Both the position numbers and the translations under genes were made by a program. Positions 3,671-38,973 of a DNA stretch of 38,973 nt are shown here, in pieces. Position 1 is the first letter of the stretch; each line of letters starts with the position of its first letter. The DNA lies in the NCBI GenBank assembly GCA_022071945.1, contig JAJVIN010000010.1, forward strand, positions 1 through 38,973. Direction: 5' to 3'. The stretch is from Thermoanaerobaculia bacterium. GTDB taxonomy: Bacteria; Acidobacteriota; Thermoanaerobaculia; UBA5066. The notes under the pieces were generated by a model. That model was not told where the DNA came from and did no database searches. It was given only the letters and a program-made list of their open reading frames with translations.

Positions 3671-4048
3671 TTACTGCTTCTTCGGGCGCTTGGCCCCGTA
3701 CTTGGAACGGGACTGCTTGCGATTGGCCACACCGACAGCATCCAGGGTCCCCCGGATGATGTGGTAGCGAACGCCAGGGAGATCCTTGACGCGGCCCCCG
3801 CGGATCAAGACGATCGAGTGCTCCTGCAGATTGTGTCCGATCCCCGGGATGTAAGTCGTGACCTCGATCCCATTCGTCAGACGGACACGTGCGATCTTGC
3901 GGAGAGCCGAGTTCGGCTTCTTTGGCGTCGTCGTCTTGACCTGAGTGCACACGCCACGCCGCTGCGGACACGCCTGCAGGGCGGGCGACTTCGTCTTGTA
4001 CCGGACAGGGTCACGACCCATCCGAACGAGTTGGCTGATCGTCGGCAT
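3671..4048 (-). CDS. rpsL: 30S ribosomal protein S12
   Basis: Decoding-centre protein of the 30S subunit. 125 residues. Conserved blocks: N-terminal [35 protein letters not shown] (carrying the Lys whose mutation gives streptomycin resistance) and [12 protein letters not shown]. Both streptomycin-target lysines are wild type, which suggests sensitivity at this site. The ATG at 4048 has an AAGGAG five bases upstream. It is the first gene of the str operon, about 125 bases downstream of a consensus-like promoter. Confidence 0.98.
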
Positions 4049-4178
4049 CAGGCTCCTTCACCGCCCCAGGGTCAAACCCCAGAGACTCCTCACCATACGT
4101 AACTGTTGCTTTCGACGAGCGAACCGATCGACACCCGCAGACTGATCCGCAGGCGGGGGCTCGCGGCGAAACTCGTGA

Positions 4179-4207
4179 ATGCTAATAAAGAGCCATTCAT
4201 CTGTCAA
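4179..4207 (-). promoter_or_regulatory. Housekeeping-type promoter of the str operon
   Basis: On the minus strand TTGACA (4202-4207), 17-base spacer, TAGCAT (4179-4184). Perfect -35 and a 4/6 -10 with ideal spacing, about 130 bases upstream of rpsL with nothing else between. It probably drives rpsL-rpsG-fusA-tuf. Confidence 0.7.
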
Positions 4208-4272
4208 GCCGGTCGGCCGCTCGAAACCTCCCCAAGCTCTTCTTCGCCTGGGAGGCGCCCGCTCTTTCGGGC

Positions 4273-4301
4273 TTGTCGCCCTCGGGTTTCGGGAATAGAT
4301 T
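4273..4301 (+). promoter_or_regulatory. Candidate promoter of the SGNH-like gene
   Basis: TTGTCG (4273-4278), 17-base spacer, TAGATT (4296-4301). Each hexamer matches consensus at 4/6 with ideal spacing. It gives a leader of roughly 60 bases before the GGAGG-preceded ATG at 4370. Confidence 0.4.
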
Positions 4302-4369
4302 TCCATCAACAGGTTGGCTCGAGTCTGCCTCTTTTCGCACACGCGGCCAGAAGACGCGTGGAGGTGATC

Positions 4370-6106
4370 ATGACTCTGCCCTGGACGAAACCCCCAGCCG
4401 GTGCCGTTTTTCCCGGTTCTTTCGTCCTCCTGCTCCTGACTCTCGCGCCATGCCTTTCGGGGTTTGGAGCGGGACCGGCGGCTCCCTCGCCGATGGCCCT
4501 CAACCCTTCGGCGCCCTCCTCCCCCGTCAAGCTGGTCTTCCTTCACCACTCGACGGGAGAGAACTGGCTTGCGGACGGGAACGGCGATCTGGGCCTTTCC
4601 CTGCGGGACAACAACTACTTCGTCTCCGACACCTACTACGGCTGGGGACCTCGCGACGAGGAGCTCGGCGGCCCGATCGGCGACTCCACCGATATCGGCC
4701 ACTGGTACAACTGGTTCCTCGGTCCCAGCCGGAACACCCACATCTCGGCTGTCCTCGCGAACTCGGAGCGGAGCACCGAGTACACCCGGATGGGAAGAGA
4801 TCCGGGAGGCGAGAACCAGATCGTGATGTTCAAGTCGTGCTTTCCGAACTCCAACCTGAAGGGAAGCTCCTCCGCCCCCGTTCCGGCCCTCTCCCAGAAT
4901 CCCCTTCGGGGCCAGGACTCTTACTCGGACGCCCACACCTTCGCCAACGCGAAGGGGATCTACGTCGCCCTCCTCGATTTCTTCGCGACCCGGACCGACA
5001 AGCTCTTCATCATCGTCACGGCTCCCCCGCTGCGCCAGGAGGAGACGGAATCTCAGTACGCCGCCAACGCCCGGGCGTTCAACACCTGGCTGGCGCGGGA
5101 CTGGCTCGCCCACTACCCGAACCGGAACGTGTTCGTGTTCGACTTCTACAACGTCCTCACTTCCAACGGCGGTTCGACCCGGACGAATGACCCGAACACG
5201 AATGACACGGGACGCGCGGACGGGAATCACCATCGCCTTCGCGACGGAGGCATCCAGCACAGCCAGACGGTCAACCATTCCACCTCCGCGTACTGGACCG
5301 GAGACAGCCATCCGAGCGGGGCGGGCAATCAGAAGGCCACGGCCGAGTTCCTGCCGCTCCTGAACATTGCCTATCACTGCTGGAAGGGCACGGGAGGCTG
5401 CTCCGGGACGACGGCTGCCTACACCACCATCATCCCGGCGGTGTCTCACAGCCCGGGGATGGGTACGAGCCAGTGGAGGTCCGACGTCGCGGGGGTGAAC
5501 CTCTCCTCGACGGCAGCCGCCGTCCAGGTGACCTACCTGCCGTCCTCCGGCGAGGCCGTCACCGAACCCTCGACGGTTCCGGCCAACGGCATCCGTGAGT
5601 GGCCCGACATCCTCTGCTCCCTGTTCCGGATGAGCTCTTCCGCCGAGACATCGGGCGTCCTGAAGTTCACGTCCGACCGGCCGCTGCTCTTGACGTCCCG
5701 GACCTTCAACGAAGACCCGAGCGGGACTTTTGGAGCGTTCCTCCCACAGGTCGCGAGCGACGGGGGAATCACTCACGGTCAGAAGGGTTATCTCCCGCAC
5801 TTGAAGAAGAGCAGCAGATTCCGGACGAACCTCGGAATCACGAACCTCGGTTCGACGGACGTCGAGGTCGGCGTACGGCTGTACGGCAAGGACGGCGAGT
5901 CTCTCGGGGTCGAGCTCGTACTCCCCGTGCCCGCAGGGTCGTTCCGCCAGGTCACGGACGTGTTCGGGCAGTGCGAGACGGGGATGAACGAAATCGCCTA
6001 CGCGGAGTTGGACGTGAGAACGAGCGGGGGCCGGATCTGGGCCTTCGCCTCGATGATCGACAACGTCACGAACGACCCGACCATCATCCCGCTGCTCGTG
6101 CCGTGA
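4370..6106 (+). CDS. Secreted SGNH-hydrolase-like protein with a C-terminal beta-rich module
   Basis: 578 residues from ATG 4370, chosen because GGAGG lies five bases upstream and it opens a signal peptide (hydrophobic residues 13-33, FVLLLLTLAPCLSG). The middle domain begins VKLVFLHHSTGENW and contains FKSCFPNSN, IIVTAPPLR and near residues 312-314 DSHPSG, resembling the last SGNH/GDSL block (DxxH). S61 in HHSTG is a candidate nucleophile but is not in a classical GDSL motif, so esterase activity is only a hypothesis. From about residue 360 two repeated half-modules follow (IPAVSHSPG...WRSDV; LPHLKKSSRFRTNLGITN; ending DNVTNDPTIIP). I recognise this from memory as a recurrent C-terminal domain of secreted acidobacterial proteins. 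It is probably extracellular or surface-associated. The adjacent lipoprotein gene has its own apparent promoter. Confidence 0.75.
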   Translation: MTLPWTKPPAGAVFPGSFVLLLLTLAPCLSGFGAGPAAPSPMALNPSAPSSPVKLVFLHHSTGENWLADGNGDLGLSLRDNNYFVSDTYYGWGPRDEELGGPIGDSTDIGHWYNWFLGPSRNTHISAVLANSERSTEYTRMGRDPGGENQIVMFKSCFPNSNLKGSSSAPVPALSQNPLRGQDSYSDAHTFANAKGIYVALLDFFATRTDKLFIIVTAPPLRQEETESQYAANARAFNTWLARDWLAHYPNRNVFVFDFYNVLTSNGGSTRTNDPNTNDTGRADGNHHRLRDGGIQHSQTVNHSTSAYWTGDSHPSGAGNQKATAEFLPLLNIAYHCWKGTGGCSGTTAAYTTIIPAVSHSPGMGTSQWRSDVAGVNLSSTAAAVQVTYLPSSGEAVTEPSTVPANGIREWPDILCSLFRMSSSAETSGVLKFTSDRPLLLTSRTFNEDPSGTFGAFLPQVASDGGITHGQKGYLPHLKKSSRFRTNLGITNLGSTDVEVGVRLYGKDGESLGVELVLPVPAGSFRQVTDVFGQCETGMNEIAYAELDVRTSGGRIWAFASMIDNVTNDPTIIPLLVP

Positions 6107-35473: not shown

Positions 35474-36207
35474 AAACGCCCGTACGGGGACGTCCCTGGT
35501 GGGTCACGGGTCTTTTCGCCGGGGCCGTCATCGGAGGGCTCGTCCTGTTGTTCCGCGAGCTTCCCGTGGCTTTGTGGATCGAGAGCTTCAAGACCTACGT
35601 GGCCGGGCGCGGAGCGTGGGGGATCGTCCTCTTCGGCCTCGTCTACGCGGGGGTCTCGCTCATCCCCGGTGGTCCGGCCGCTCTTTTGACGCTGGCCGCC
35701 GGGGCCCTGTTCGGCCTCGTCACCGGCACGGTGACCGTCTCCCTCGCCTCGACCGCGGGGGCCACGATGGCCTTCCTCCTCGCCCGCACCGCGTTCCGCC
35801 AGCGGGTCGAGCGCCTGGCCGCGAAGAACCCCAGGTTTCGCGGACTCTACCGGGCCATCGAACGGCAGGGAGCCAAGATCGTGGCGCTCGTGCGGCTCTC
35901 GCCGGTCTTTCCCTTCACGTACGTGAACTACCTCTTCGGACTGACACCAGTGAAACCCGTTCCCTACGTCCTGGCGAGCTGGGCCGCGATGCTCCCCGGC
36001 ACTCTCGCCTACGTCTATCTCGGGTACAGTCTCGGGGCGGCCACGGGCGCGGCCTCCCCCCGGCAGAAGGCGATCCAGATCGCGCTCGGGGTTGCCGCGG
36101 TCGTGGCCACGGCCTGGATCGCCCGGATCGCCGTGGTCTCCATTCGCAAGGCCGGACTGGAGGAAGAACGGGCGGGACCCGGTCCGGATTCCGCGGGGTC
36201 AGGGTGA
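35458..36207 (+). CDS. TVP38/TMEM64-family (VTT domain) membrane protein
   Basis: 249 residues. GTG start at 35458 inside the preceding gene, with AAGGTG upstream. Four to six hydrophobic spans: WWVTGLFAGAVIGGLVLLF, GIVLFGLVYAGVSLIPGGPAALLTLAAGALFG, LASTAGATMAFLLA, WAAMLPGTLAYVYLGYSLG and a C-terminal helix ALGVAAVVATAWIARIAVV. The VTT signature LSPVFPFTYVNYLFGLTPVKPVPYV is clear. Related DedA/VTT proteins act in lipid scrambling or transport. Linkage or fusion to MerA-like flavoproteins is known in other bacteria (from memory), which supports a joint redox/membrane role. Confidence 0.9.
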   Translation: MAEAVETPVRGRPWWVTGLFAGAVIGGLVLLFRELPVALWIESFKTYVAGRGAWGIVLFGLVYAGVSLIPGGPAALLTLAAGALFGLVTGTVTVSLASTAGATMAFLLARTAFRQRVERLAAKNPRFRGLYRAIERQGAKIVALVRLSPVFPFTYVNYLFGLTPVKPVPYVLASWAAMLPGTLAYVYLGYSLGAATGAASPRQKAIQIALGVAAVVATAWIARIAVVSIRKAGLEEERAGPGPDSAGSG

Positions 36208-36259
36208 ACTGGAGACCCTCTTTCGCCGTAAACGGGCCGAGCCCTTGGAGAAAAAGACG

Positions 36260-38629
<2,370 letters not shown>

Positions 38630-38633
38630 AAGG

Positions 38634-38674
38634 GGGTGAGCGGTGGAAGCCGGATCCGACATCACCGCTCACCC
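38634..38674. terminator. Hairpin terminator between convergent genes
   Basis: Perfect 12-bp inverted repeat (GGGTGAGCGGTG at 38634-38645, CACCGCTCACCC at 38663-38674) with a 17-base loop, four bases past the kinase stop and 17 before the end of the convergent TPR fragment. T tracts are weak on both sides, but the placement suits a bidirectional terminator. Confidence 0.6.
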
Positions 38675-38691: not shown

Positions 38692-38850
38692 CTACTTGAG
38701 CTTCTCGAGTTCCTTGCGGATCCGCTTCTTCTGCTCCTCGTCCTCGGTCATCGAGAGCGCCTTCTCGTAGTTGAGGACGGCGTTCTTCTTGTTCCCTGCG
38801 GCCGCCCAGGCCTCGGCCAAGGAGTCCCACGTGTTCCAGGAACCGGGGCT
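38692..38850 (-). pseudogene. 3' fragment of a TPR-repeat protein gene, 5' part lost
   Basis: The minus strand encodes 52 residues beginning SPGSWNTWDSLAEAWAAAG and ending RIRKELEKLK before TAG at 38692-38694. The WxTWDSLAEA...AxxxYEKAL pattern is a tetratricopeptide repeat, usually the last one of a longer protein. An in-frame TGA (38851-38853) stops the frame just upstream, at the point where mobile-element-like sequence begins. No start codon or ribosome site remains. Probably a gene broken by insertion; the rest would be beyond the window. Confidence 0.65.
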
Positions 38851-38973
38851 TCAACGCTCGCCAGAAGTGATCCACATGTGCTCGTGAGAAGTGATCCACC
38901 CGTGTAGAGAGGGTTCTGATCAGCATCATCCGCCGAAGGCGCCTGAGGCGGGTCGACAGGACGGCCATGGAAT
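38851..38973 (+). mobile_element. Probable end of an IS21-type insertion element (partial)
   Basis: Sequence character changes where the TPR frame stops. Two spaced direct repeats with the core AGAAGTGATCCAC follow; repeated copies of such a GTGGATCACTT motif near the termini are a trait of IS21 elements (from memory). About 70 bases later, at 38967, ATGGAA opens a plus-strand frame that leaves the window and sits where istA would start. No transposase residues can be read, so the family assignment is inference. The exact left end lies between about 38848 and 38860. Confidence 0.5.
38856..38899. repeat. Two 20-base direct repeats, 24-base period
   Basis: 38856-38875 and 38880-38899 share GCTCG, two variable bases, then AGAAGTGATCCAC. 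Candidate transposase-binding repeats at the end of the putative insertion element. Confidence 0.8.

Follow-up and report, generated by a model that had tools for sequence, protein, structure and literature searches.

Right end of a multicopy IS21-like element in a DUF2911-TPR gene of a Thermoanaerobaculia bacterium, and a ParB-like gene in related elements

The window analyzed in this study (38,973 nt, from a Thermoanaerobaculia bacterium) made up all of contig C51, in an assembly of 69 contigs and 6.17 Mb, and its right edge was therefore an assembly break at a repeat. At position 38849 a host gene on the minus strand gave way to an IS21-type element, entered at its right end; the contig ended 125 bases further on. 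The features of this region were as follows.

36092-38629, plus strand: ORF for a Ser/Thr protein kinase (Pkinase, E 1.6e-46) that converges on the cut gene.
38634-38674, no strand: inverted repeat between the convergent genes, with 12-nt perfect arms and a 17-nt loop; from its sequence, a probable terminator.
38692-38848, minus strand: 3' remnant of a DUF2911-TPR protein gene, 51 codons and a stop; identity to the paralogue on contig C24 ran to 38848 and then stopped.
38842-38848, no strand: ACCGGGG, which would be one half of a 7-bp target duplication, predicted from the 7-bp duplications at other copies; the partner flank was absent from the assembly.
38849-38973, minus strand: the last 125 bp at the right, istB-side end of an IS21-like element; the boundary was identical in 13 genomic copies.
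38856-38875, minus strand: terminal repeat R1, GCTCGCCAGAAGTGATCCAC, a probable IstA-binding site, by its 24-nt direct repetition, by analogy with R1/R2 of IS21 (accessible part of PMC10122671) and by the same terminal motif in relatives.
38880-38899, minus strand: terminal repeat R2, GCTCGTGAGAAGTGATCCAC, assigned as R1, at a period of 24 nt.

The TPR-like frame had its stop codon at 38692-38694 and was open to 38848, giving 51 residues (PGSWNTWDSLAEAWAAAGNKKNAVLNYEKALSMTEDEEQKKRIRKELEKLK), and an in-frame stop for it lay just within the inserted DNA. The inserted DNA started with CTTCAACGCTCGCCAGAAGTGATCCAC and held two direct repeats, the 24-nt copies of which (38856-38879 and 38880-38903) were 83% identical and had the exact stretch GAAGTGATCCAC in common. 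The genes of the element would run from right to left, on the minus strand. Apart from this, a short tandem repeat of GGGCGTCCTCAAGGGGACGCT-like units was seen by eye inside the kinase ORF (37160-37245).

The genome had 13 copies of the 125-base right end, of which 12 lay at contig ends. All the copies began at the same base and were 96-100% identical, and the flanks outside the boundary looked mutually dissimilar. The two direct repeats, which the sequence-only reading had placed at an IS21-like end, were thus beyond chance, since the end that contains them recurred at 13 places. Aligned to the copy on contig C9, 11 of the 12 contig-end copies reached 124-127 nt into the element and the twelfth, that of the window, 125 nt; an overlap of 124-127 nt looks like the k-mer length of the assembler. 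The thirteenth copy, on C9, extended 1184 nt inward from the terminus. Its minus strand encoded, in the direction of the terminus, first the last 224 residues of IstB and next an ORF of 112 aa. This IstB matched the IS21 helper family NF038214 with 212.8 bits (cut-off 200). Because istB and the 112-aa ORF lay inward of the same end, the end in the window was the right, istB-side one. The new ATG of the sequence-only reading does exist in the window, near 38968, but was no conserved gene start, since the codon was ATG in six of the 13 copies and AGG in seven; it also lay outside the two C9 ORFs.

An uninterrupted paralogue of the cut gene was found on C24. It encodes 347 aa, with DUF2911 at E 3e-52 and weak TPR matches. 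The window and C24 were 92% identical over the 339 nt that lead up to the boundary, a stretch that includes the end of the kinase ORF, and a shorter alignment gave 95% over 243 nt; the similarity ceased at 38848. The insertion site accordingly corresponds to about codon 296 of the DUF2911-TPR gene (347 codons in the paralogue). A search for the rest of the TPR gene had been proposed as a check, and it was answered in part: the intact paralogue was there, but the 69 contigs lacked the 5' part of the gene cut in the window; the sole other matches were weak ones on C26 and C6.

The left end of the element was sought by clustering the outward ends of all 69 contigs (138 ends) and reading the clusters. 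A cluster of eight contig ends started with CTTGACCGCTCGTCAGAAATGACCC, a diverged inverted copy of the terminus in the window, and the far inverted end that had been anticipated was thereby found. In the assembly the right ends (13) outnumbered the left ends (eight). When the 13 right flanks were compared with the eight left flanks, four exact 7-bp complementary pairs were obtained (C50e-C6e, C1s-C56s, C44s-C40e and C3e-C32e); for flanks taken at random positions 0.0145 pairs would be expected. These pairs tie the left end to the right one. Two further pairs matched at 5 bp only, a number that chance can give (0.15 expected). In the pair C3e-C32e both ends were sequence variants, consistent with one copy. 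With the host flanks joined, stop-free frames of 163-173 aa ran over all four junctions, a count that carries no control for such frames in G+C-rich DNA. The predicted target duplication was therefore present at four other sites, but the window copy's own left partner and duplication were absent from the 69-contig assembly; none of the eight left ends had the expected flank CCCCGGT.

The termini of the element read CTT...AAG in all 13 right and eight left ends, and not TG...CA, so that the terminal 3' CA of IS21 was absent. For this reason the element is filed as IS21-like and not as a standard IS21 member. The expectation of istA and istB inward of the end held for istB, in the C9 copy, but not for istA, since no istA of this element occurred in the assembly and the istA models matched other elements only. 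On C53 the window's element interrupted the 5' part of the istA of another IS21-type element (C53:33892-36061; L016, L283), which is a nested insertion. Most of the 138 contig ends fell in clusters of shared sequence (the largest with 12, 8, 8, 5, 5 and 5 members), and many other repeats thus break the assembly. Two four-member clusters (C15s, C2s, C3s and C62s; C29e, C36s, C58s and C8e) looked like possible 5' ends of group II introns.

With the frame open to 38848, the recurrent end from 38849 and istB inward of that end in C9, the TPR gene was cut by an IS21-type element at the window edge, as first read. In the wider explanation, which includes its mechanistic steps and which we hold with high confidence, a multicopy IS21-like element has inserted in a DUF2911-TPR gene, and 38849-38973 is its right terminus. 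The window's copy would have moved by the same IstA/IstB reaction (a DDE transposase with an AAA+ helper) and so knocked the gene out. By analogy with the family, IstB would select and activate and IstA would cut and join, and the insertion would have left a 7-bp staggered duplication like those at the other copies of this element. The contig probably breaks at 38973 because the assembler was unable to cross the repeat.

Two other accounts of the junction were weighed. The 5' part of the TPR gene might have been lost by rearrangement or deletion between element copies, with the right end left beside the remnant. The absence from the assembly of both this part and the matching left flank fits such an event, and at least 13 copies of the element would be a good substrate for recombination. 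However, the smallest contig of the assembly was 9.4 kb, and short pieces were therefore evidently discarded; moreover, other right ends were partnerless too, the 7-bp match being found for only four of 13. A rearrangement is thus rather improbable. It is harder still to credit that 38849 is an assembly or binning artefact, a chimera of a host contig and a repeat, even with an unbridged junction 125 nt from the contig end. The 13 junctions shared a base-exact boundary, four of them were paired by exact 7-bp duplications, and an overlap resembling the k-mer length would be normal assembler behaviour at a true repeat. The insertion of the element is ordinary genome wear; it accounts for the truncated gene and, together with the other repeats, for the assembly breaks.

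Relatives of the element were collected by comparing the C9 IstB with the GTDB species-genome collection. The comparison gave 129 related stretches; the 80 best were retained, and four more were added from relatives, giving 84 loci that were picked by IstB alone. By tblastn, istA was present in 83 of the 84. A ParB-like gene occurred in 77, normally just upstream of istA, and a small ORF after istB, called orfX here, in 39 (38 by plain tblastn). Among the seven loci without parB, four (L200, L222, L238 and L260) started within or just before istA or istB, in L261 parB was matched on the other strand, and no parB was detectable in L236 and L264 despite enough upstream sequence. The order in the relatives was left end, zinc-finger-like ORF, parB-like gene, istA, istB, in some cases the helical orfX, and right end. 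The catalytic D, D and E of IstA were invariant (D122, D184 and E230 in L217 numbering). The IstA of two relatives scored 158.5 and 157.8 bits against NF033546, just below the NCBI cut-off for IS21 of 160, and the IstB of L217 scored 234.6 bits against NF038214 (cut-off 200).

Ungapped matching, used to look for inverted ends de novo, yielded noise only, and the terminal motif was used instead. By this motif both ends were located in 47 of the 84 loci. The elements had a median length of 4078 bp (3787-5070), and in 40 of the 47 a small Cys-rich ORF preceded parB. The distance from istB to the right end was 490-925 bp with orfX and 146-1222 bp, often below 270, without it. Target duplications were looked for in 39 relatives, after removal of 37 loci in which the motif did not locate both ends and of eight others with less than 12 nt of flank. 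Duplications of 5-8 bp were seen in seven of the 39, with the ends set by motif alone, against a mean of 0.27 and a maximum of 4 in permutations. Plasmids were considered and rejected as a source: ParB had three weak matches there and orfX none, even though an istB relative occurred in at least 5000 plasmid records.

The product of the parB-like gene had the ParB N domain and the ParB helix-turn-helix by profile, domain and fold. The protein of L217 matched TIGR00180 with 64.4 bits (cut-off 58.45). A profile was built from 64 of the 77 proteins, with 13 truncated, over-long or redundant ones left out, and it matched the PDB structures of Noc and Spo0J at 7e-15. At E up to 0.001, HTH_ParB was detected in 57 of the 64 proteins and ParB_N in 15. 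The AlphaFold model had a mean pLDDT of 84, with a low-confidence tail, and matched Noc, ParB and KorB (best E 3.7e-11). In the GxKR box the G was invariant and the R near-invariant.

With the parB profile, no parB of the element was found in the genome of the window, where the sole match was another ParB on C11. The element's own parB is instead suggested by the position of the C9 copy in the IstB tree and by the start of the first ORF. In the tree, the C9 copy grouped with L191, L192 and L257, all of them parB-positive (support 100/99), and this group lay inside an 88-row clade that holds all 77 parB loci (100/99), with long outgroup branches. The left end of the element, on C32e, opened an ORF of the Cys-rich type that begins MGWSSEPERQRCTVCRDWYRPHK, like the first ORF of the relatives. 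Alternatively, the element could be an ordinary two-gene IS21 (istA-istB), the parB of the relatives having been acquired elsewhere in the clade. The lack of a visible parB in its own genome's copy and the two parB-free loci L236 and L264 speak for this. We consider it very unlikely, in view of the third ORF after istB in the own copy, the left-end first ORF typical of parB-bearing elements, and a place within a clade where 77 of 84 relatives have parB.

A repeat array was present between the left end and parB in many of the relatives. In 20 of the 47 elements GCG[AC]AAGACCAG occurred three times or more on the same strand, normally 68-70 nt apart, and the controls gave 0/47 on the other strand, 0/47 in equal lengths of parB and 0/940 in shuffles. 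A sequence-free test was applied to 49 regions (the 47 two-ended elements with L191 and L257). Evenly spaced triples occurred in 24 of the regions, at a lag of 68 (three) or 69 (21), and in 1/49 and 0/245 of the controls; no triple was seen in the other 25. The sequence of the unit varied by clade, with GGCGCGAGACGCG in Holophagaceae, and the period did not. In L191, which is closely related to the window's element, TGTCACGGAC repeats were read by eye about 80-86 nt apart, and this region was negative in the triple test. General counting of repeated 8-mers was weakly above the shuffles. A structured RNA was also considered and rejected: 16 of the 23 array stretches listed were aligned and their consensus fold gave -1.39 kcal/mol, and no Rfam match was obtained at the array in the four loci scanned.

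The array partly overlapped the Cys-rich, zinc-finger-like ORF, and part of its periodicity could therefore arise at the protein level. The 69-bp array might even reflect a 23-codon repeat within the zinc-finger protein and not a DNA site, as the first two copies were in frame in several elements (AKDQF...AKDQF). Nevertheless, spacings of 68 and 70 occurred, the frame ended inside the array in L199 and L061 while later copies persisted, and the unit differed between clades at a constant period. A protein repeat is thus unlikely. As a DNA site, the array lies just upstream of the start codon of parB. The ParB-like protein might bind it there and repress or clamp the operon, and hence transposition, a step that we regard as evenly poised. 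KorB acts as such a repressor or clamp on its plasmid. End synapsis and target immunity are, with the protein repeat, the alternative roles of the array. Taken as a whole, it is conceivable, with the balance slightly against it, that a widespread IS21-like lineage is equipped with a ParB-family protein of its own and with a centromere-like site array of fixed 68-69-bp period as a private ParB-parS-type clamp. If so, this would be a small transposon whose clamp controls its transposition or marks its DNA, with target immunity or end synapsis as conceivable purposes.

The IS21 family serves as a structural model for transposases driven by an AAA+ helper. As far as the accessible part of PMC10122671 describes them, its members have two ORFs and terminal repeats separated by 23 bp, and give 5-bp duplications in assays. 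The present element resembled IS21 and IS5376 in the istB helper, above the curated cut-off in both C9 and L217, in the invariant triad of the relatives' istA products, in pairs of direct repeats, about 24 bp apart, at both ends, and in short target duplications (7 bp here). It differed in its ends; in addition, the IstA scores of two relatives were slightly low, the relatives have four or five genes in about 4.1 kb, and the C9 copy has an extra ORF after istB. The relatives' parB product was similar to ParB, Noc and KorB, known from ParB-parS partition and from the KorB repressor, in sequence profile, predicted fold and GxKR box, and in having a repeat array next to its gene. In contrast to those systems, its neighbours were istA and istB, and no ParA stood out among the L217 ORFs read by eye. 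Binding and hydrolysis of CTP and loading at a parS-like site would be putative functions here, where the GxKR box is conserved and the array is a candidate site. No description of parB in IS21-like elements was found among open-licence PMC titles and abstract starts. In the accessible part of PMC12175520, "PARB" is an abbreviation for antibiotic-resistant bacteria and not the ParB protein. The insertion itself is ordinary; the parB-bearing family looks like a new variant. An IS21-like branch with a ParB-family protein and a regular site array would make control of a transposase-helper pair by a ParB clamp testable.

The orfX product was modelled as a confident, helical protein (mean pLDDT 91.9). 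Neither Foldseek nor VIA-align gave a clear structural relative, the best Z being 5.3, in the tool's warning range, and orfX had no PHROGs family and no match among plasmids. An alignment of 39 of 40 proteins was used, the identical L218 being left out. In seven of the 39, a weak likeness to the C-terminal helical domain of RepB primase (PF22448) was detected at E up to 0.1 (best 0.0012); it was not significant for most members, and the orfX of the present genome matched no family. In the phylum, orfX was found in 30 of 396 sampled genomes (the present one included), often after a very divergent istB (for example L272-L281), and IS21-like elements may widely carry it as a third gene. A distant, complete IS21 of the present genome was located inside a response-regulator gene (C1:450956-454299; L282 3457-6800), with istA-istB-orfX, the canonical ends TGTCA...TGACA and a CCATCC duplication. 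No parB was detected within the 10 kb examined around it, so orfX also occurs outside the parB lineage. Moreover, a third orfX-like ORF of the genome (C52:1508-1804, 109 bits) was situated away from the IS21 istA and istB matches found.
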